A DNA stretch of 64,000 bases from Trichlorobacter thiogenes (GTDB lineage Bacteria; Desulfobacterota; Desulfuromonadia; Geobacterales; Pseudopelobacteraceae): the NCBI RefSeq assembly GCF_900167465.1, contig NZ_FUWR01000011.1:1-64000 (forward strand). Reading direction: 5' to 3'. Each line of letters begins with the position of its first letter. The first letter of the stretch is position 1. Both the position numbers and the translations under genes were made by a program. Positions 45,834 to 57,113 of this stretch are shown one piece after another. The notes under the pieces were generated by a model. That model saw only the letters and a program-made list of their open reading frames with translations, had not been told where the DNA came from and did no database searches.

Positions 45834-48269
45834 ATGTGCGCAAAACGACTGCTTCTCATATCGCTGGTTTTTCTGGTTTTGGGGTGCCTGTCAGAGTATC
45901 TGCTTGGGGTTCCGTTTTCCTATATTATTCCATTGATTTTAGTTGGTTGTCTTGTTTGCTCGGTGCCTTTTAAAAGCCAGGTCCTGTTCGGTTGGCTACT
46001 GGCATTATTCTGGATGAGTTGGGGAATGGCAGCTCTGGCACCACACCTGGATAAAAATTTGGCTGGTCAAGGTATTGCTGCATTTGATGGCAAACAGGTT
46101 GTTGTTGAGGGAATCCTGCAGGGCCGTCCCCTTATGAAGGCTGAAGGACAGCGGTTTGAACTGCAGGTTGAGCAGGTATATTCCAATGGTACTACGTTTG
46201 CTGTTGATGGTGTTCTGCTCGTAACTATTGCCAAAGGACAGGGCCCCTGGCTGAGTGGTGATAGAATCCGCTGTCCGGCTAAAGTGCATCTGCCTCGCCT
46301 GCTTGGACTGCCGGGGGAGTTTGATTATCGCCGCTATCTTGCACTGCGCGGAGTCCAGGCAACGGCTTGGGTGCATGAAGCTGATAGCATTGTGCTGATG
46401 CGTGGTGCTGCTGTGACGTCGTGGCATCGCTGGATTGACGCACTTGCGCTGCGCAGTCAGGAATTTATCAGAAAAAATGTTCCTGACCCTGATCAGCGCG
46501 GAATTGTGTTGGCTTTGGCAACCGGTGGTCAACAAGAGGTCTCTCCTGCCATAACTACCGCCTATAGCCGGGCTGGTGTGTCCCATATTCTTTCTGTCTC
46601 AGGATTCCATGTTGGTGTTGTAGTTGCGGTGTGGGTCCTCTGTTTGCGATGGCTGATGCTGCGTTGGGAGTGGCTGGCATTGCGCATTGATGTCCGGCGT
46701 ACGGCGTTGCTCTCAGCACTGCCGCTTATGCTGCTGTACCTTGTCTTTACCGGTGGCGCACCTGCCACAGCCCGTTCTGTGCTGATGTTGTCAGCTGTGG
46801 TGCTGGCCATTTGGAGTGAGCGGGAGATTGACAGTCTGGATGCGCTGCAACTAGCAGCTTTTTGCTTGCTGGTGGCAGATCCGGGTGTCCTGTTTGATCT
46901 CTCGTTTCAGCTTTCATTCCTGGCGCTTTGGGGGCTGCTGGTGCTGACTCCGTTACTTGTTGCACCGTTTGATCGCTTTATAGTACGGGGCTGGCAGCGG
47001 ACACTGCTGCTACTCTGTGCTGCCTCGATAGCCACCGTACTTTCCACCATGGCACCGGTGCTGGACTCATTCCATCAGGTCTCGTTCAGTGGAATTCTGG
47101 CGAATCTGGTGATCGTGCCACTTTTAGGGTATGGCGCTACGGTTTTGGCTACTGCAGCTCTTCCGCTGCAGTTCTGGCTACCGTCTGTTGCGGCGTTTTT
47201 ACTGAAGGTGTCTGGCTGGCTGGTACTGGTCAGTAATGGCTTTATTTTCTGGATATCCCGCTTGCCTGTACTGCACAGCTTCAATGTCGGCCCTGTTGAT
47301 CTGTTGGCTACTGTTGTCCTGCTTGGCCTGCTCAGCTTTATCCGGTCTGGTCGCAGCAAAGCTGTTGCCGTAAGCCTGTTGGTAATCGGGCTGATGCTGG
47401 TACATCTATGGCCCGATGCAGCACCGGATGGGAACATGAGGATTGCCTTCCTGGGCGTGGGGCAGGGGGATGCGACCTTGATCAAGCTTGCAGACGGTCG
47501 CACTCTGCTGGTGGATGGTGGCGGCTATCTGCTGGATTCCAATAAGGATTTTGGTGAACGGTATCTGGTGCCGGCGTTACATCGTCTTAAGGTTAAGCAG
47601 ATTGATCTGATGGTCTTGACCCATCCCCATCCTGATCACCTTGGAGGACTACCTGCGGTTGCCGAGCAGTTTCGGGTGAGGGAGTTCTGGCAGGGGGAGT
47701 CGGTTGGCTCAAACGACAACTATCAGCGCCTTATCGGGGCGCTTAATAATCAGCATACAACCCTGCGGATAGTGAAAAAAGGAGATCGTGTCCAATTTGG
47801 GAAGGAGCTGGTGCTGTCAGTTGTTGCCCCACAGGCAGTGGCAGGGGGTGAGGGGGGGGACAATGATGATTCTTTGGTGCTACACCTTCAACAATCCTCT
47901 TTCAGTACGCTTTTGATGGGCGACGCCGGTTTTCCTGTGGAAGATATGCTGCTCCGTGATGGTGTTGGTGAGATTACTCTGCTTAAGGTAGGGCACCATG
48001 GCAGCCGATACGCAAGTAGTGAACAATTTCTTGCCAGGGTCAAGCCACGGGTTGCGGTGATATCAGTCGGGGCAGGCAATACGTTTGGTCTGCCAACAGA
48101 AGAAACCATCAATCGGATCAAACAGCAGGGGACAGAGTTGTATCGAACTGATCAGCAGGGGACCATCCAGGTTGAAACCAATGGCATTGGATTTACCGTA
48201 GCGCCGCTTAAGACCGAACCTGCTCTGCTTGCTACAGTGCGACATTTTGTTTGTAACATTTTGTTTTGA
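45834..48269 (+). CDS. comEC: ComEC/Rec2-type DNA internalisation protein
   Basis: An 811-residue membrane protein forming the inner-membrane channel for DNA uptake. The N-terminal part has a DUF4131 region, then the competence domain with several membrane spans (VSHILSVSGFHVGVVVAV and FTGGAPATARSVLML are typical), and a C-terminal metallo-beta-lactamase domain (about 535-800) with FLGVGQGDATLI, the metal motif THPHPDHLGGL and KVGHHGSRYAS. Length and domain order are normal. It suggests natural competence potential, though many bacteria carry comEC without known transformation. Confidence 0.93.
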   Translation: MCAKRLLLISLVFLVLGCLSEYLLGVPFSYIIPLILVGCLVCSVPFKSQVLFGWLLALFWMSWGMAALAPHLDKNLAGQGIAAFDGKQVVVEGILQGRPLMKAEGQRFELQVEQVYSNGTTFAVDGVLLVTIAKGQGPWLSGDRIRCPAKVHLPRLLGLPGEFDYRRYLALRGVQATAWVHEADSIVLMRGAAVTSWHRWIDALALRSQEFIRKNVPDPDQRGIVLALATGGQQEVSPAITTAYSRAGVSHILSVSGFHVGVVVAVWVLCLRWLMLRWEWLALRIDVRRTALLSALPLMLLYLVFTGGAPATARSVLMLSAVVLAIWSEREIDSLDALQLAAFCLLVADPGVLFDLSFQLSFLALWGLLVLTPLLVAPFDRFIVRGWQRTLLLLCAASIATVLSTMAPVLDSFHQVSFSGILANLVIVPLLGYGATVLATAALPLQFWLPSVAAFLLKVSGWLVLVSNGFIFWISRLPVLHSFNVGPVDLLATVVLLGLLSFIRSGRSKAVAVSLLVIGLMLVHLWPDAAPDGNMRIAFLGVGQGDATLIKLADGRTLLVDGGGYLLDSNKDFGERYLVPALHRLKVKQIDLMVLTHPHPDHLGGLPAVAEQFRVREFWQGESVGSNDNYQRLIGALNNQHTTLRIVKKGDRVQFGKELVLSVVAPQAVAGGEGGDNDDSLVLHLQQSSFSTLLMGDAGFPVEDMLLRDGVGEITLLKVGHHGSRYASSEQFLARVKPRVAVISVGAGNTFGLPTEETINRIKQQGTELYRTDQQGTIQVETNGIGFTVAPLKTEPALLATVRHFVCNILF

Positions 48270-48332: not shown

Positions 48333-49742
48333 ATGACTGAAACCAGACAGATGAATGAAATACTGATCGTTGAAGACGATCGCTTTTTCCGCGAGTTGTA
48401 TGCCGACCTGCTGCGCCAGGCTGGATACGGCGTGGAAACAGCCTGTTCTGGTGAGGAGGCGCTGGATCTGTTGCTGGATGCCCGCTTCGGTCTGGTGGTG
48501 ACAGACCTTGCCATGCCTGGAATTTCCGGGCTGGAACTGTTGGTAAAGATCAAGTCACAAGACCCTTCCATTGACGTTATTCTGGTGACCGCCAACGCAA
48601 ACCTTGAATCAGCCCTCTTCTCCCTTAAACATGGTGCCCGTGATTTTCTGCTGAAACCGATCAGTTCAGATGAACTGTTGCATACCGTGCGACTCTGTAT
48701 GGAACAACGTCGCCTGCTGGATGAAAATGTTGAGCTACGTAACACGTTGGGGCTTTTGCAGACAAGTCAGGCACTTTCAAGTTGCCTGGATCTTGAAGGG
48801 GTCTGTCATCTTGCTGTGGATGCCCTTGCCCGTGAGGTCGGGGTGGGGCGTGGTGTTGGCCTGGTACAGCTGAATGGAGAGTTTATTGTCAATGAACTGA
48901 AAGGGGTTGATGCAGCCACAGGCGCACTGGTGCATAAGCTGCTGGCCTCTTCCTTTCGCAAACGTTCATCCCGCAAGGGGCAGCCGGTGCGGTTGCTCCT
49001 GCCAACGGGATATGATGAGCTTGAGCAGGCTGATTTAAGGGAAGCGGTCCTCTTTCCCCTTATTATTAGAAACAGCTGCCATGGTATGGTGATTTTGCTG
49101 AATGACCCAGGGCAGATTATCCCTTCGCTCAAGAGCGAGCGTAACATCAATTTTCTTGAAGAGCACGGCGCCCGAGCGCTTGATAATGCCCTGCGTTTCA
49201 CCTCCACCAGAGATATGCTCTACATTGATGAGCTGTCTGGTCTGTTTAATTATCGCTACCTGAAGGTTGCGTTGGAGCGTGAAATTAAACGGGCTGATCG
49301 CTACTCTACCCAACTGTCGGTGGTGTTTCTTGATCTGGATAATTTCAAAGGGGTCAATGACACCTATGGTCATCTGGTGGGCAGTAATCTGCTTAAAGAA
49401 CTGGGAGCCTTACTGAAAAAATCGGTTCGTGAAGTCGATGTCCTGATCCGTTATGGTGGTGACGAGTACACCATTATTCTGGTGGAAACCGGCCCTGATG
49501 CTGCACGACAGGTGGGTGAACGTATCAGGAAGATGATTGAAAAACATTGCTTCCTTGCCAGAGAAGGCTACCAGATTCATGTGACTGCCAGCCTGGGATT
49601 TGCCTGTTATCCTGAAGATACCACTGGGATTGGAGAACTGCTGGCCATGGCAGACAAGGCCATGTATGCCGGTAAGGCTGCCGGTAAAAACTGTATTTAT
49701 CGTGTTGTCAGCCCTCTTGCTGGCGGCACGTTACAACAATAA
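48333..49742 (+). CDS. REC-GAF-GGDEF cyclase, Hypr type (predicted cAMP-GMP synthase, GacA-like)
   Basis: A 469-residue response regulator. REC (1-120): IVEDDRFF, Asp in VVTDLAMPGISG, Lys in LLKPISSDEL. A GAF-like domain (about 150-290) follows, then GGDEF (about 300-465). The active-site motif is YGGDEY and an RxxD inhibitory site (REVD) lies five residues before it. In canonical diguanylate cyclases the helix after GH reads GD; here it reads GHLVGSNLL, so the guanine-contacting Asp is Ser. That change is the hallmark of Hypr GGDEF enzymes such as Geobacter GacA, which make 3',3'-cGAMP. A hisS neighbour also fits what I recall for GacA. Product specificity is inferred. Confidence 0.85.
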   Translation: MTETRQMNEILIVEDDRFFRELYADLLRQAGYGVETACSGEEALDLLLDARFGLVVTDLAMPGISGLELLVKIKSQDPSIDVILVTANANLESALFSLKHGARDFLLKPISSDELLHTVRLCMEQRRLLDENVELRNTLGLLQTSQALSSCLDLEGVCHLAVDALAREVGVGRGVGLVQLNGEFIVNELKGVDAATGALVHKLLASSFRKRSSRKGQPVRLLLPTGYDELEQADLREAVLFPLIIRNSCHGMVILLNDPGQIIPSLKSERNINFLEEHGARALDNALRFTSTRDMLYIDELSGLFNYRYLKVALEREIKRADRYSTQLSVVFLDLDNFKGVNDTYGHLVGSNLLKELGALLKKSVREVDVLIRYGGDEYTIILVETGPDAARQVGERIRKMIEKHCFLAREGYQIHVTASLGFACYPEDTTGIGELLAMADKAMYAGKAAGKNCIYRVVSPLAGGTLQQ

Positions 49743-49752
49743 GGGAGTACTA

Positions 49753-51003
49753 ATGAGCATTACCGCTATCAAGGGATTTAACGATCTTCTGCCTTCGGAA
49801 TCCGAGCTTTGGCAATTTATTGAACAGACCGCCCGGCAAGTCTTTGCACGCTATGGTTTTAATGAAATACGGGTGCCGATAGTTGAGAAAACAGAACTGT
49901 TCTGTCGTTCTATTGGTGATACCACCGATATCGTTGAAAAAGAGATGTACACCTTTACCGATAAAGGGGGCAGCAGCCTGACCCTGCGTCCTGAAGGGAC
50001 CGCCAGTGTGATGCGGGCCTTGATAGAAAATAAACTGTACGCGCTGGACAGCATCAACAAGCTTTATTACATGGGGCCTATGTTTCGCCATGAACGCCCC
50101 CAGAAAGGGCGTTATCGTCAATTCCATCAGATTGGTGCCGAGGTCACCGGCGCTGCAGATCCGCTGATTGATGCCCAGGTGCTGTTAATGGTCAGTCGCC
50201 TGTTCAAAGAACTCGGGCTGACAGAACCCAGTCTGCAAATTAACTCGCTTGGTTGTCCGGTCTGTCGCCCTGCCTATCGTGAGGCATTGGTGGCTTTTCT
50301 GGAAGAACGTCAGGACGCACTCTGTGAGGATTGTCGCCGTCGTCAGACCACCAATCCCCTGCGGGCGCTGGACTGCAAGGTGCCGGGCTGTGTTGAGGCA
50401 ACCCAGGGGGCTCCCGCCATGGTGGAGCATCTTTGTGCTGAGTGTGATCAACATTTCAGTGCAGTGCAAAACTATCTGACTGCTGCTGAGGTCCCTTTCA
50501 GCCTGAACCCCCGTATGGTCAGAGGTCTGGATTACTATACCCGTACCACCTTTGAATTGGTGACCGGCCTGCTGGGTTCCCAATCTGCTGTGGCTGCTGG
50601 TGGTCGTTATGATGGCCTGGTGGAGCAACTAGGTGGCCCGGCTGTGCCTGGTATCGGTTTTGCCCTTGGCGTAGAGCGGGTTGCTTTGCTTCTGGGGGAC
50701 CGTAATTTTGACCGAATGCCGGATCTGTTCATTGCTGTGATGGGGGATGCTGCGCGGACCGCTGGCTTCCGTCTGATGGCTGCCTTGCAGGATCAGGGTT
50801 TCTGGGTGGAAACAGATTGTGAAGGCAAAAGCCTGAAGAGCCAGATGCGTCGGGCAGACAAACTTAAGGCCCGTTACAGCATTGTGCTTGGTGATACGGA
50901 ACTGGCAGCAGGCAGCGGGGCATTAAAGCGGATGGCGGATGGTAGTCAACAGACGGTTGCGCTGATTGCCGAAGGTATAGCAGGAGCTATTACAGGAGGT
51001 TAG
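49753..51003 (+). CDS. hisS: Histidyl-tRNA synthetase
   Basis: A 416-residue class II aminoacyl-tRNA synthetase. It begins MSITAIKGFNDLLPSE; motif 2 reads GPMFRHERPQKGRYRQFHQ, the histidine-binding stretch is RGLDYYTRTTFE, and motif 3 is GIGFALGVERV. A cysteine-rich patch (CPVCRP...CEDCRRR...CAECDQH) in the insertion may bind zinc. ATG at 49753 is supported by GGGAG. The following gene starts five bases after the stop, so the respiratory module downstream may be co-transcribed with it. Confidence 0.97.
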   Translation: MSITAIKGFNDLLPSESELWQFIEQTARQVFARYGFNEIRVPIVEKTELFCRSIGDTTDIVEKEMYTFTDKGGSSLTLRPEGTASVMRALIENKLYALDSINKLYYMGPMFRHERPQKGRYRQFHQIGAEVTGAADPLIDAQVLLMVSRLFKELGLTEPSLQINSLGCPVCRPAYREALVAFLEERQDALCEDCRRRQTTNPLRALDCKVPGCVEATQGAPAMVEHLCAECDQHFSAVQNYLTAAEVPFSLNPRMVRGLDYYTRTTFELVTGLLGSQSAVAAGGRYDGLVEQLGGPAVPGIGFALGVERVALLLGDRNFDRMPDLFIAVMGDAARTAGFRLMAALQDQGFWVETDCEGKSLKSQMRRADKLKARYSIVLGDTELAAGSGALKRMADGSQQTVALIAEGIAGAITGG

Positions 51004-51008
51004 CTGCG

Positions 51009-52766
51009 ATGAACTACCCGGTCTGGTTTGTTCCGACGTTTGGTGGTGGCCTGCTGATCGCCCTGGTGGCGATCATTCACGTTTTTGTTTCCCACTTTGC
51101 CGTGGGTGGCGGACTCTATCTGGTTATGGCCGAGCGCAAGGCCATCAAAGAACAGAGTCAGGCAATCATGGCGTTTGTCAAAAAGCATACGAAGTTTTTT
51201 ATGCTTTTAACCATGGTCTTTGGGGGCCTGACCGGTGTTGCCATCTGGTTTGTCATCTCCCTGATTCATCCGGCTGCCACCTCGCTCCTGATCCATACCT
51301 TTGTATTCGGCTGGGCAGCGGAATGGGTCTTCTTTCTGGTGGAGATCGTTGCGCTGTTTGTCTACTTCTACACCTTTGGCAAAATGGATGACCGCACCCA
51401 TCAGACGGTTGGCTGGATCTATTTCGGTGCGGCCTGGATGAGTCTGTTCCTGATTAACGGCATCATTGACTTCATGCTTACCCCTGGCAGCTGGATCAGC
51501 AACAGTGATTTCTGGTCCGGTTTTTTTAATCCTACCTTTTGGCCATCCCTGTTTTTCCGCAGTTTCATGAGCTTTATGCTGGCAGGTTGCTACGGTTTTC
51601 TGACAGCGACTTTTCTGGAGGATGAGGCCACCCGGCACCGAATGATCCGTTATTCCGGCACCTGGGCGCTGGTGTCGTTGATTCTCTCCCTTCCGGCAGG
51701 CTGGTGGTATCTGTCGGTACTGCCGTCACCTGCTGCCAAACTGGTATCCGGGGCTTCTCCCACCATTAAGCGGGCTGTTATGACCGGTGGCTTTTCCCTG
51801 GCAGTTCTGGCAGGTGTGTTGATTGCGTTAATCCTGCTCAATCCCAAGGCTCGTGTTCGCTGTCTGATTGTGGCGGTGATGCTGTCAGCCATGGGCTATA
51901 TGGGGGCCTTTGAGTGGACCCGTGAGGCTGCGCGGCGCCCTTATGTCATCAACCAGGTGATGTACTCCAACGGTATCCTGAAGAAGGATCTGGAACGGAT
52001 CAATCAGGAAGGGTTCCTGAAGAACGCCAAGTGGGTGCAGAATAAAGAGGTGACCGAGACCAACCAGCTTGAGGCGGGACGAGAGCTGTTCCTACATCAA
52101 TGTTTTGCCTGTCATAGCCTGAGTGGATTTAATAACGATATTGTCAGTCGCACCAAAAATATGAGCTTTGGGGCCATGCGCAAGTATCTGACTACCATCC
52201 ACGAAAAACGCTACTTCATGCCACCCTTTGTGGGGACAGATAGTGAGTTGAAGGCACTGGCAGCCTACCTGACTGGCGGTCTGCACAAGAAACCGCTGAC
52301 CGATGATGCCGGTGCAACAGGTGATCGCGGCAAGGTATTGTATGAAGAGAACTGTGCAGCCTGCCATAGCTCCGACAGTATCAAGCCAAAGCTGAAAGGC
52401 TGGGATCTGGCCAAAGTACGCGCTTCGCTGGACAAACTACCGGCCTTGAATCCGGCTATGCCTGATTATACGGCTCCGGCGGCAGTCAAGGATGCTATGG
52501 CCGGCTACCTGTTCGGGCTGAACAATCCCGTTGCTGCTGCACCGGCAAAGGCTAAGGGAGCAACCCTGTTTGATGACAACTGCGCTGCCTGCCACAGTAT
52601 GGATCAGATCAAGCCCAAGATGAACGGCTGGTCTCGGGACAAGATCAGGGCTGCGCTTGATAAACTTTCAGCCCTGAACCCGGCCATGCCGGATTATACC
52701 GGTACAGCGGCAGAGAAGGATGCAATGGCTGACTATATGGCTGATCAGGTAGGAGGTGCCAAATGA
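51009..52766 (+). CDS. Membrane quinol-oxidising type cytochrome: multi-TM domain fused to three c-type haem sites
   Basis: A 585-residue fusion. Residues 1-320 hold about eight membrane spans with histidines in the first spans (IIHVFVSHFAVGGGL, LIHTFVFGWAAEW), resembling subunit I of bd-type quinol oxidases (CydA-like). The periplasmic C-terminus has three CxxCH sites: CFACH, then CAACH twice, the last two in a tandem duplication of 76 residues (each with IKPK, GW, LNPAMPDYT). It probably takes electrons from menaquinol and passes them through its haems to the octahaem protein encoded downstream. No oxygen-reducing partner is present. Exact family name is uncertain. Confidence 0.7.
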   Translation: MNYPVWFVPTFGGGLLIALVAIIHVFVSHFAVGGGLYLVMAERKAIKEQSQAIMAFVKKHTKFFMLLTMVFGGLTGVAIWFVISLIHPAATSLLIHTFVFGWAAEWVFFLVEIVALFVYFYTFGKMDDRTHQTVGWIYFGAAWMSLFLINGIIDFMLTPGSWISNSDFWSGFFNPTFWPSLFFRSFMSFMLAGCYGFLTATFLEDEATRHRMIRYSGTWALVSLILSLPAGWWYLSVLPSPAAKLVSGASPTIKRAVMTGGFSLAVLAGVLIALILLNPKARVRCLIVAVMLSAMGYMGAFEWTREAARRPYVINQVMYSNGILKKDLERINQEGFLKNAKWVQNKEVTETNQLEAGRELFLHQCFACHSLSGFNNDIVSRTKNMSFGAMRKYLTTIHEKRYFMPPFVGTDSELKALAAYLTGGLHKKPLTDDAGATGDRGKVLYEENCAACHSSDSIKPKLKGWDLAKVRASLDKLPALNPAMPDYTAPAAVKDAMAGYLFGLNNPVAAAPAKAKGATLFDDNCAACHSMDQIKPKMNGWSRDKIRAALDKLSALNPAMPDYTGTAAEKDAMADYMADQVGGAK

Positions 52767-53830
52767 ATCCAGCTACCCTGATTCCGATTGCTGACACCTT
52801 GACCGCGCCCAACGGTTGGTTCCAGTTTTTTCTGATGTTGACCTTTCCCCTGCATCTGTTTGCCATGAATGCCATGCTGGGGGCCGGGCTGGTGGCCTTC
52901 ATCAGCCACCTCTATCCGGGACGGGCATATCGTGAGCTTTCCCATGAATTGGCCAAGGCGTTGCCGTTTCTGGTGGCCTTTACTGTCAACCTGGGGGTGG
53001 CGCCACTTCTGTTCGTCAATGTGATCTACGGCCATCTGCTGTACTCAAGTACGGTACTGATGGGTCTCTACTGGCTGGCGGTCATCCCGTTGCTGATCAT
53101 CGCTTACTACCTGGCGTATATCTATGATTTCAGTTTCAAGCAGCTGGGTAATCTGGCCATGTTTGTGCTGCTGGCAGTGCTGGTTCTGCTACTGACAGTC
53201 GGCTTTATTTTCTCAAACAATATGAGCATGATGATCTCTCCGGTAAGTTGGAGCCGTTGGTTTACCACTCCTGGAGGTACCCTGCTTAATTTGGCTGACC
53301 CAACCCTGCTACCTCGCTACCTACACATCATCACCGGGTCGCTTGCTGTGGGGGGGCTGTTCAGTGCACTGTATGCATCAACGCTGCTCAAATCTGATCC
53401 AGAAGTATCAGAAGCAGGCAAAAAACTGGGTATGCAGCTCTTCTCATGGTTGACCCTGCTGCAATTTGGTGTAGGAACCTGGTTTCTGCTGACACTGCCA
53501 CAAAAGACTATGAGCCGTTTTATGGGTGGTAGTCCCGTTGCCACGCTCTTGCTGGTAGTCGGTGTATTGCTAGCTGTGGCAACCCTGATAACCGGTTTTA
53601 AACGGCTGGTTCTGCCTACTGTCTGTCTGACCTTACCGTTGGTCTATGTCATGTCATTTATGCGCGATGTTGTTCGCGGCAATTTTTTGGCCCCTTATTT
53701 CAACCCGTCCACCGTCCCGGTACAGGTACAATGGTCGCCTTTAATCTTTTTTCTGGTGACCTTGATGCTGGGTCTGGTGTTGGTTGTCTGGATGCTTTCC
53801 AAATTACAAATTTTTAAAAAAGTCAGTTAA
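52763..53830 (+). CDS. Membrane subunit related to the N-terminal domain of the preceding gene
   Basis: A 355-residue protein with about nine membrane spans and no haem c motif. Its first span (LHLFAMNAMLGAGL) aligns with the first span of the preceding protein (IHVFVSHFAVGGGL), so the two are probably ancient duplicates forming a heterodimeric membrane complex, comparable to CydA/CydB-type pairs. The start overlaps the previous stop by four bases. Function is inferred from its place between a haem-bearing partner and an octahaem cytochrome. Confidence 0.6.
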   Translation: MNPATLIPIADTLTAPNGWFQFFLMLTFPLHLFAMNAMLGAGLVAFISHLYPGRAYRELSHELAKALPFLVAFTVNLGVAPLLFVNVIYGHLLYSSTVLMGLYWLAVIPLLIIAYYLAYIYDFSFKQLGNLAMFVLLAVLVLLLTVGFIFSNNMSMMISPVSWSRWFTTPGGTLLNLADPTLLPRYLHIITGSLAVGGLFSALYASTLLKSDPEVSEAGKKLGMQLFSWLTLLQFGVGTWFLLTLPQKTMSRFMGGSPVATLLLVVGVLLAVATLITGFKRLVLPTVCLTLPLVYVMSFMRDVVRGNFLAPYFNPSTVPVQVQWSPLIFFLVTLMLGLVLVVWMLSKLQIFKKVS

Positions 53831-53869
53831 AACGGACTTTAATGGTCTTTTGTGACTGTATACAGGTTG

Positions 53870-53898
53870 TTGACATCAAGATATGAATATGTTCTTAT
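53870..53898 (+). promoter_or_regulatory. Possible sigma-70 promoter for the octahaem cytochrome gene
   Basis: TTGACA (53870-53875) is followed after 17 bases by TCTTAT (53893-53898). The leader would be about 70 bases. It gives the cytochrome gene a possible separate start within the hisS run. The leader was examined for a GEMM-type riboswitch and none was seen. Confidence 0.45.
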
Positions 53899-53973
53899 AC
53901 AGCGTTTTTAATATGCCATGCTCGGCAACAGGTGCTGGGCTCACTATACGCAGGACAACGAAAGGGGAAGGGT

Positions 53974-55437
53974 ATGAAGGGTTTTAAAGGAATGGTGGCT
54001 CTGTTGACCGCCGCTCTGGTTCTGGTTTCTTTCCAGGCCTTTGCCGGTCCAGATCACACCGAGTTTGTCAAAGGGCCATTTAAAAAGGGTCAGGACGTAA
54101 CCAAGGTATGTCTGGAGTGTCACGAGAAGCAGGCTGCAGACGTGATGAAGACCGCTCACTGGAAGTGGGAAGGCACACCAAACCATGTCAAAGGTATGGA
54201 GAAGAGTGGTAAAACTTTTGGCAAAAAGAACATGATCAATAACTTCTGTACTACCGTATTCCCTGGTCCTGATGGTATTGCCCATGAATCCTGCAGCAAG
54301 TGCCACGCCGGTTACGGCTGGACCCGCAGCAAGTTTGATTTTAATGACAAGACCCGTGTAGACTGTCTGGTCTGTCATGCCCAGAAGGGTAACTATGCCC
54401 GTGGTGCTGTTGGTGCGGATGTAGATACCAAGGCCATGGAAAAAGGTTCCATGAACCTTGAACTGGCAGCCCAAAGCGTTGCCAAGCCTAGCCTGAAAAA
54501 CTGCGGTGTTTGTCACTTCTACGGCGGCGGCGGCGATGCGGTTAAGGTGCCTGGTCTGGATTCAACCCTTGAAGGCGCTTCTAAAGAGCAGGATGTCCAT
54601 ATGGCAACCAAGGCAAAAGGCGGCGCTGGCCTGATGTGTCAGGATTGCCACAAAACCAAGGATCACGCCATTGCCGGTCGTTCCAGCCAGATGGCTCACT
54701 ATGAAGCCAAGGTTGAGTGTACTGACTGCCATACCGGTGCCAAGGCACCTCACCAGAAGTCAAAGAACAAGGCTATCCTGGACAAGCATACCGCTTCTGT
54801 TGCTTGCCAGACCTGCCATATTCCTACCATCTCTCGTGGCCAAGCAACCAAGACCATGTGGAACTGGTCTGATGTAGGCAAGAACATCAAGGCTGAAGAA
54901 GAGTTTGATAAAGAAACCTTTGCCAAGCACAAAGGTACCTTCAAGTGGAACATGAATTATGTTCCGACCTATGCCTGGTACAACGGTCAGATTGAGCGTT
55001 ACATGCTGGGTGACAAGATCAAGGATGCTTCCAAACCGGTTAACATCACCAAGCCTGCTGGTGATATCAATGACAAGAAAGCCAAGATCTATCCTTACAA
55101 GTTCTATACCGGTACCCAGCCGATGGATAGCAAGTTCAAGTACCTGAACACCTTCCAGCAGTACAAGGAACTGTGGGTGAACTTTGACTGGGAAAAGGCT
55201 CTGGTAAACGGTGCAAAGAGTCCTGAAGGCCTGCCTTACAGCGGCAAGTACCAATTTGTTAAAACCCAGTCCTGGCTGAGTGCAGGCCACGAAGTTGCTC
55301 CTAAAGAGCAGGCTCTGCAGTGTGGCGAGTGCCACATGGGCGCAAAGCGGATGGATTGGGCTGCTCTGGGTTACAAAGGCGACCCGATGCAGGTTGGTGG
55401 CCGTACAGCTGAAAAGGCTGGTAAAAAGAAGAAGTAA
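53974..55437 (+). CDS. Octahaem c-type cytochrome, tetrathionate reductase (OTR) family
   Basis: A 487-residue exported protein with signal peptide (cleavage after QAFA) and eight CxxCH motifs: CLECH, CSKCH, CLVCH, CGVCH, CQDCH, CTDCH, CQTCH and CGECH. The segment ESCSKCHAGYGWTRSKFDF followed by VDCLVCH is characteristic of the octahaem tetrathionate reductase family from Shewanella, whose members can also reduce hydroxylamine and nitrite in vitro. It is periplasmic and would receive electrons from the membrane subunits encoded just upstream. The true substrate in this organism is unknown. Confidence 0.87.
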   Translation: MKGFKGMVALLTAALVLVSFQAFAGPDHTEFVKGPFKKGQDVTKVCLECHEKQAADVMKTAHWKWEGTPNHVKGMEKSGKTFGKKNMINNFCTTVFPGPDGIAHESCSKCHAGYGWTRSKFDFNDKTRVDCLVCHAQKGNYARGAVGADVDTKAMEKGSMNLELAAQSVAKPSLKNCGVCHFYGGGGDAVKVPGLDSTLEGASKEQDVHMATKAKGGAGLMCQDCHKTKDHAIAGRSSQMAHYEAKVECTDCHTGAKAPHQKSKNKAILDKHTASVACQTCHIPTISRGQATKTMWNWSDVGKNIKAEEEFDKETFAKHKGTFKWNMNYVPTYAWYNGQIERYMLGDKIKDASKPVNITKPAGDINDKKAKIYPYKFYTGTQPMDSKFKYLNTFQQYKELWVNFDWEKALVNGAKSPEGLPYSGKYQFVKTQSWLSAGHEVAPKEQALQCGECHMGAKRMDWAALGYKGDPMQVGGRTAEKAGKKKK

Positions 55438-55967: not shown

Positions 55968-57113
55968 TTACTGGCCTTGTGATGGATTTCTGCCAATTTT
56001 TTTAAGATAATCGCTGTATCCTTTGTCAAAAATAAGCTCTATCTCGTTTTTTGGGCGATTTTCATCATAGTTTTTGAAGTAAATAGTCAAGCTTATCAGA
56101 GCAAAGATAACAATGGTAATGACAAGGCCCGTTTTTAATATCTGCTTTAGTCGTTGTTCGGGAGTCGCTTCTGTTTTCTCCGAGTTTGGACCGCTACGAA
56201 AGAGGTACTGCTCACGCATCAGCCTGATCCGCTTCAGTTGAACGTTTGAGATGTAGCTGACAATGGCATCACGGTCCCGTTCTTCAACAAACTTGAACTT
56301 AAGGCCGGTATTGTAGCTGGTACGGCTAAACTGTTTGCTGGCAGCATAGTTTTCATTGGCGAAAGCCACCACACAAACGGCATCGATCACCTGTGGTTCT
56401 GGTTCACAGGGAAGGTAAATTTCAATCGGTACCAGCGTGTCGTTTTCAAATTTGTGGTGCAGGAGCATCCGTATGCCGCCGCCACTAATGTTTGCTGCCA
56501 GCGGGATAACATCATCCCAGGAATGGTCGCTGGTGTCATTAATGGCCTGATCTGGCTGATCCAGCCCCTCGCCCGTGTCATCCCATAATCCTTCTTCACC
56601 AAATTCTTCAGAGGGTAGTTCTTCTGTGTCAGGGGCCTGGCGTAGACGCTCCCATGGTTTTTTCTCCTGCTGTTTCCTTTCTTTTTCTGCTGTTATCCGT
56701 GCCTCCCGTTTTTCTTTCCAGGCCACCTTAAGCCTGACTTCGCTCTGCTCTGTGCTGATAAAGTATTTAATCGGTAGGAAGGCATCAATCCGGTAAAACT
56801 CACGCAGCTCAGATGAAACGATCTCACCGATCAGGCGCAGCAACACTTCGCGGTGATATCCTTCAGTAACAATGATGGCACGGCAGGAATATCCTTCGAT
56901 TTCATTGCCGGCACGGATATCCAGAATAGTTCCAACTTTAAGTTTAACGCCTGCCGGGAGTGTGTCGCGGGAAAGCTGCAGTGAAATCAGATCTTCATCA
57001 ATAGTGTGGATGATGGCCCAGTCGTGAAACGTGTCGCCACCAGGTACCGGAATGCCAACATTGACCTTCAACCCGACAGGAAAATGCTCAAGGTATTGAT
57101 CAAAATCACTCAT
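55968..57113 (-). CDS. PilZ-domain protein with acidic insertion and C-terminal membrane anchor
   Basis: A 381-residue protein. An N-terminal YcgR-N-like beta domain (about 8-105) precedes a PilZ domain whose cyclic-dinucleotide motifs are visible: REFYRID (R-x3-R) near 117 and ANISGGGIRML (N-x-S-x-x-G) near 211. Between them lies an unusual 75-residue charged insertion rich in Lys/Arg then Glu/Asp. One membrane helix near 333-352 (GLVITIVIFALISLTIYF) anchors it with the body in the cytoplasm. It is a likely effector for c-di-GMP or possibly cGAMP. It is followed on the same strand by no close gene. Confidence 0.8.
   Translation of the reverse strand: MSDFDQYLEHFPVGLKVNVGIPVPGGDTFHDWAIIHTIDEDLISLQLSRDTLPAGVKLKVGTILDIRAGNEIEGYSCRAIIVTEGYHREVLLRLIGEIVSSELREFYRIDAFLPIKYFISTEQSEVRLKVAWKEKREARITAEKERKQQEKKPWERLRQAPDTEELPSEEFGEEGLWDDTGEGLDQPDQAINDTSDHSWDDVIPLAANISGGGIRMLLHHKFENDTLVPIEIYLPCEPEPQVIDAVCVVAFANENYAASKQFSRTSYNTGLKFKFVEERDRDAIVSYISNVQLKRIRLMREQYLFRSGPNSEKTEATPEQRLKQILKTGLVITIVIFALISLTIYFKNYDENRPKNEIELIFDKGYSDYLKKIGRNPSQGQ

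Follow-up and report, generated by a model that had tools for sequence, protein, structure and literature searches.

Does Trichlorobacter thiogenes make the messenger 3',3'-cGAMP, and which genes would respond to it? The question is raised by one gene in the window (the whole stretch of 64,000 nucleotides that was analysed), for which a Hypr-type GGDEF enzyme with a REC-GAF-GGDEF layout had been predicted. The GacA of Geobacter sulfurreducens, with which the enzyme had been compared, is locus GSU1658.

Domains and specificity residues of the window protein

The following features were located in the window.

45834..48269 (+): comEC/rec2 competence gene, upstream neighbour of gacA
48333..49742 (+): gacA orthologue, ATG to TAA, 469 aa, with REC, a middle domain and a Hypr GGDEF domain
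48360..48689 (+): receiver domain, residues 10-119, Asp58 kept (Pfam Response_reg PF00072, E 2.4e-29)
48729..49220 (+): middle domain, residues 133-296, called GAF-like solely from its position (predicted model; no Pfam match)
49221..49691 (+): GGDEF domain, residues 297-453 (Pfam E 1.8e-42; structure overlay on 6d9m)
49251..49253 (+): Tyr307, the cross-dimer residue, for which most diguanylate cyclases have Arg; equivalent to Tyr304 of GmGacA (alignment; role per PMC6456294)
49383..49385 (+): Ser351 in GHLVGSNLL, Hypr specificity residue, equivalent to Ser348 of GmGacA and Asp in PleD (role per PMC6456294)
49428..49439 (+): REVD, residues 366-369, allosteric inhibitory RxxD site
49455..49469 (+): GGDEY catalytic motif, residues 375-379
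49753..51003 (+): hisS, downstream neighbour of gacA (named by eye from the translation)

The best sequence match of the protein in the PDB was 6d9m (E 5.6e-70; the next match had E 1.8e-38), and 108 of 165 aligned residues of the two GGDEF domains were identical. The model of the GGDEF domain overlaid on 6d9m with a VIA-align Z of 29.0 and an rmsd of 1.2 A over 169 residues, the best among the 50 matches listed. In the alignments, GHLVGS of the window protein lay against GHLVGS of 6d9m (Gmet_1914) and against GHDIGD of PleD (2wb4); thus, Ser351 occupies the specificity position, where 6d9m has Ser and PleD has Asp. The original prediction that Ser replaces the conserved Asp was borne out by both alignments, with no Asp at this position, and the GGDEY motif and intact RxxD site that it named were both present. 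The protein resembled GacA (Gmet_1914, 6d9m) in its specificity Ser, cross-dimer Tyr, GGDE[FY] motif, RxxD site and N-terminal receiver, whereas its motif is GGDEY and that of Gmet_1914 is GGDEF. With PleD and canonical diguanylate cyclases it shares the REC and GGDEF domains and the fold, but it carries Ser at the specificity position where PleD carries Asp.

Of the predicted domain layout, Pfam recognized REC and GGDEF, and the GAF domain is putative. The molecule name of 6d9m places a GAF domain between REC and GGDEF, whereas no Pfam GAF match was found in the middle region of the window protein, even at E values up to 5. An AlphaFold2 model of the whole protein (24-row alignment; mean pLDDT 86.5, pTM 0.46) places an alpha/beta domain in this region.

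The roles of these residues are described for GmGacA in PMC6456294. Ser348 takes guanine or adenine and requires GGDE[F/Y] to work, replacement of the Arg by Tyr304 makes c-di-GMP less favoured, and inhibition of the enzyme is chiefly through the I-site. GacA is described there as promiscuous in vitro, yielding product mixtures, and as making mainly cGAMP only in the cell. Because of this promiscuity in vitro, the original statement that the Ser replacement switches the product from c-di-GMP to cyclic AMP-GMP was too strong.

A census of the organism's own genome gave 38 GGDEF loci from 39 Pfam matches, two of which are pieces of one gene. Ser stood at the specificity position in just three of the 38: the window gene, a 361-aa protein (C34) and a HAMP-GGDDF protein (C39). 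NCBIfam assigned the general GGDEF model to each of the three, and other names fell below their cut-offs among the 25 matches listed for each.

GacA orthologues and a second Hypr family

We compared 33 GacA rows, namely the window's own and 32 others, made up of the best 30 of 102 matches in the order and three more from the genus search. All 33 rows have the specificity Ser, the conserved Asn that corresponds to N339 of GmGacA, and RxxD. The catalytic motif was GGDEY in 26 rows and GGDEF in seven, and the receiver Asp was kept in 32/33, with Glu in L063. At the cross-dimer position we found Tyr in 22 rows, His in nine, Gln in two and Arg in none; His is absent from the cross-dimer residues named in section 13 of PMC6456294. 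A chance substitution or misalignment of Ser351 was ruled out by the alignments together with the conservation of Ser in all 33 rows.

A gacA match was detected in 102/117 genomes of the order (cut 1e-70), including two partial, weaker matches (G045, G015) that may not be GacA. Within the genus, strong orthologues (E 2.7e-131 or better) occurred in 8/15 genomes, own included; the seven genomes without one include G120, which is 53% complete. The gene order comEC-gacA-hisS was found in 32 of the 33 GacA loci, and at the exception, L042, hisS was present and comEC absent within 1500 bases upstream of gacA. In four congeners that lack gacA (G063, G018, G084, G116), comEC adjoins hisS, the matched parts being some 120-215 bases apart, so that gacA is truly missing there and was not lost in an assembly gap. 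A different gene precedes hisS in G008 and G117, and hisS was not found in G120. A further scan of contigs with poorly conserved stretches kept 80 loci; L140, L141 and L142 were clear orthologues and the rest were at most 45% identical.

The window gene is one of three candidates for the synthase in this genome, the others being another full Hypr protein and one whose motif is degenerate:

G000:C34:57761-58843 (-), L105:1462-2547: Hypr-type protein of 361 aa, GAF-GGDEF, unlinked to gacA (GAF E 3.9e-21)
G000:C39, L138:3098-4426 (-): 442-aa HAMP protein; its motif is degenerate (GGDDF), and Ser aligns with the specificity position

The 361-aa protein contains GHLVGS, GGDEY and RxxD, with Ala at the cross-dimer position. 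Its best PDB match was also 6d9m (E 1.4e-39), and its GAF part matched 5w10, deposited as a cGMP-specific phosphodiesterase (E 1.8e-31). The gene lies between pterin/queuosine-type and YrdC-like genes, both named by eye. Members of this family were found in 38/117 genomes of the order (cut 1e-70), including 10/10 of the genus genomes in the order sample, own included; five of these ten lack gacA. Among the best 30 of the 38 members, Ser was present in 30/30, and the cross-dimer residue was Ser in 15 and Ala in 14, with L241 only partly read. In G008, which lacks gacA, just one of 22 GGDEF matches has Ser, namely the member of the 361-aa family. Our literature search found no paper linking Trichlorobacter with GGDEF, and for lovleyi with cGAMP it returned a single paper, whose abstract opens on glycoside hydrolases. 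We present the 361-aa family as a fresh point, which may already figure in published Hypr screens.

According to PMC8835794, G. sulfurreducens has a second synthase, GSU1937, with a GGDDF motif, and this protein is the sole bearer of Ser there besides GacA; the 361-aa family would thus be absent from that organism. The 442-aa protein of our genome resembles GSU1937 in having Ser, GGDDF and HAMP.

The relationship of the two families was addressed with a tree of 73 GGDEF domains: 10 of the 33 GacA rows, 6d9m, 10 of the 30 rows of the 361-aa family, PleD, and 51 others from our own genome and G008. Six rows without a recognized start motif were excluded, as were two of every three remaining rows from both Hypr sets and six domains shorter than 140 residues, the C39 protein among them. 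The tree was rooted at the midpoint and the specificity column was kept in. The GacA rows and 6d9m formed one clade (support 100/99), the second Hypr family formed another (98/94), and the two together were separated from the rest (98/94). PleD and the 51 canonical or degenerate domains of our own genome and G008 fell outside the Hypr clade. The simplest reading of this tree is that the Hypr type here had one origin, followed by duplication.

We concluded that the window gene is a GacA orthologue, of a known kind and an ordinary member of its family. The predicted assignment to GacA-type Hypr GGDEF proteins agrees with the specificity residue, the alignment to 6d9m, the tree clade and the conserved neighbourhood.

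GEMM-I riboswitches and the genes that follow them

We then considered what could read such a messenger. The search for GEMM-Ib riboswitches proposed with the original prediction yielded one predicted A-type GEMM-I site in our own genome:

G000:C26:108741-108817 (-): GEMM-I riboswitch (RF01051, 41 bits; gathering score 35)

This was the only site over the RF01051 threshold, and 14 control genomes gave zero. Two more RF01051 sites in the genome (E 3 and E 7) were rejected as chance level, because 8/14 controls match at the same cut. A search of our genome with the related Rfam model RF03167 added nothing better than E 0.3, and the window compared with all Rfam families gave nothing above threshold. 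With RF03167 the C26 aptamer scored 40 bits against a cut-off of 59, and UACUAAAC replaces the common GCAAAC stretch in it. The specificity column of the C26 aptamer, which we take to be nucleotide 20 in the Vc2 numbering, is A. In this respect the aptamer is like the GEMM-Ib riboswitches of pgcA in G. sulfurreducens and pilM in G. metallireducens. Changing nucleotide 20 from A to G converts a cGAMP riboswitch into a c-di-GMP riboswitch (PMC6456294, Figure 2 legend).

A predicted terminator, with a 12-pair stem and a U run, captures the 3' strand of the aptamer in our own genome, G094 and G032. None of 200 shuffles folded as well as these leaders (z −5.3, −5.1 and −4.3, respectively), and the terminator stem of our own genome alone had a z of −7.5 in the shuffle control. 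This arrangement is like that of the pilM cGAMP ON switch described in PMC9262584, where the terminator uses the aptamer's 3' strand and the two folds are mutually exclusive.

About 220 bases 3' of the riboswitch is the start of a gene whose 795-aa product joins two chitobiase-type domains to a multihaem cytochrome part (PF11783); it contains nine CxxCH motifs, and 1sp3 is its best match in the PDB (E 6.4e-53). The gene is followed on the same strand by PilM-, PilN- and PilO-like genes, PilN scoring above its cut-off and PilM and PilO below theirs, and then by genes for a 186-aa protein that matched nothing credibly, a secretin, and two proteins whose N-termini look pilin-like by eye. Gene order and strand suggest that the cytochrome and the pilus/secretion-like genes share an operon.

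Genes of related character occur in the window itself. After hisS, the stretch 51009-55437 (+) encodes a protein that combines a cytochrome bd subunit I part with three cbb3-type haem domains, a membrane-type protein that Pfam did not match, and a cytochrome (PF11783; eight CxxCH motifs) that shares 33% identity with its paralogue behind the riboswitch. At 55968-57113 (-) there is a PilZN1-PilZ protein whose C-terminal part carries a hydrophobic segment (by eye); it may be a receptor for cyclic dinucleotides.

For G. sulfurreducens, PMC6456294 reports 17 GEMM-I riboswitches, with targets that include outer cytochromes and pilMNOP genes; 13 of the 17 are GEMM-Ib. Our genome yielded one GEMM-I riboswitch versus these 17 and, unlike the GEMM-Ib riboswitches of Geobacter, it was found in a single copy. 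Because one GEMM-I leader was found here against 17 (13 GEMM-Ib) there, control of attachment to solid electron acceptors, as originally proposed, does not follow. The cGAMP pathway that had been ascribed to the strain is probably present, given two predicted enzymes and a predicted riboswitch, but small. The original call was correct for the enzyme and sensible as regards the pathway, whereas its claim at the level of the organism was too strong.

Across the genus, 22 GEMM-I sites were found in 11/15 genomes. A model (R1) built from 21 of them recovered the same 22 sites, 21 by construction, and none new; in most genomes each riboswitch search scored no more than the 150 best first-look candidates, so riboswitches could have been missed. 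The specificity column of the 21 aligned sites was A in 13, G in seven and C in one; the 22nd, L086, lies at a contig end outside the alignment and has G by eye. The site with C is L083:1501-1576 (G119). Tandem aptamers, A-type then G-type, stand before the same kind of gene at L089:1501-1775 (G008) and at L087/L072 (G063). In these leaders a stem and U run follow the A-type aptamers, and a hairpin without a long U run follows the G-type. The tandem A/G arrangement in these two congeners, both without gacA, is possibly a two-messenger leader.

Of the 13 A-type sites, five belong to genomes that lack gacA (G008, G018, G063), and gacA is therefore not required for A-type riboswitches. Conversely, no GEMM-I match was found in G041 and G059, which carry gacA; thus, the coupling of synthase and riboswitch is not tight. 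The two kinds of mismatch together show that A-type riboswitches and gacA are not strictly coupled in the genus. A-type sites that occur without gacA could be explained by the second Hypr enzyme. For G041 and G059, the sole explanation at hand is that sites were missed or have diverged.

Proposed pathway and alternatives

Our preferred explanation, which we hold with considerable confidence, is that the window gene is a GacA orthologue whose product makes mostly cGAMP, read by an A20-type GEMM-I riboswitch. Sequence, homology, conservation and tree are observed, as is a predicted riboswitch that a predicted terminator overlaps; the product, the ligand, the switching direction, the shared operon and the physiology are what we infer. 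The window protein would act as a homodimer with one purine nucleotide bound per GGDEF domain. The replacement of Asp by Ser351 would let each site accept ATP or GTP, and the central Asp of GGDEY would hold the metal at the right distance. With Tyr307 in place of Arg across the dimer, guanine would no longer be favoured, and mostly 3',3'-cGAMP would be made in the cell. Binding of c-di-GMP at the REVD site would throttle the enzyme, and the receiver domain would be a further input. The cGAMP would be sensed by the A20-type riboswitch elsewhere in the genome: the ligand would keep the aptamer folded, which would block the overlapping terminator and turn the multihaem cytochrome and pilus/secretion-like genes ON. 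The second Hypr enzyme (GAF-GGDEF) probably feeds the same cGAMP pool.

The product could be less uniform than this. GacA gives mixtures in vitro (PMC6456294) and a dual Hypr enzyme has been reported in Bdellovibrio (PMC9302825, PMC9140294), so the window enzyme might be promiscuous in the cell also, making c-di-GMP and cGAMP like Bd0367 of Bdellovibrio and having its role via either product. We consider this unlikely: Tyr stands at the cross-dimer position, where an Arg would accompany more c-di-GMP. A reading of the Ser variant as a GGDEF receptor, either inactive or binding c-di-GMP, is most improbable. The retained RxxD site would suit such a protein, but GGDE[FY], the conserved Asn and Ser occur together in 33/33 rows, and their pairing is described as active (PMC6456294).

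A further alternative concerns which of the enzymes matters more. The 361-aa GAF-GGDEF protein could be the main cGAMP synthase of the genus, with gacA an accessory that several congeners lost or never had. In favour of this are its presence in all ten genomes that represent the genus in the order sample, of which five have no gacA, the invariant Ser of the best 30 of 38 members, the persistence of A-type riboswitches in three gacA-minus congeners, and the adjacency of comEC and hisS in four. Against it, deletion of gacA in G. sulfurreducens cuts the reporter signal by more than 80% under acceptor limitation (PMC6456294), and gacA is wider in the order, in 102/117 genomes versus 38/117 at the same cut. 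On Fe(III) citrate, however, the deletion lowers the cGAMP reporter by just 10% and GSU1937 matters more (PMC8835794), so GacA need not be the chief source of cGAMP. We judge this alternative conceivable but rather doubtful; it is compatible with our preferred explanation and not opposed to it. A related proposal is that the 361-aa family, soluble proteins sister to GacA, is a second cGAMP synthase that has spread in part of the order and is the core enzyme of Trichlorobacter instead of GacA, with a GAF input unlike the receiver of GacA, and that the tandem A-/G-type leader hears both messengers. With the 361-aa family as core enzyme, cGAMP signalling would outlast the clean absence of gacA. 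We offer this proposal tentatively, as a nearly balanced case that we lean slightly against.

With the window gene as a GacA orthologue, these results add to GacA-type cGAMP signalling an organism whose genome yielded a single GEMM-I leader. What is fresh is that GacA has a conserved sister family, that one riboswitch was found and that close relatives cleanly lack gacA. With two full synthase candidates, a third that is degenerate, and one riboswitch, the pathway would be unusually simple to test. The natural absence of gacA in relatives that keep the sister enzyme makes it possible to ask which enzyme feeds cGAMP.
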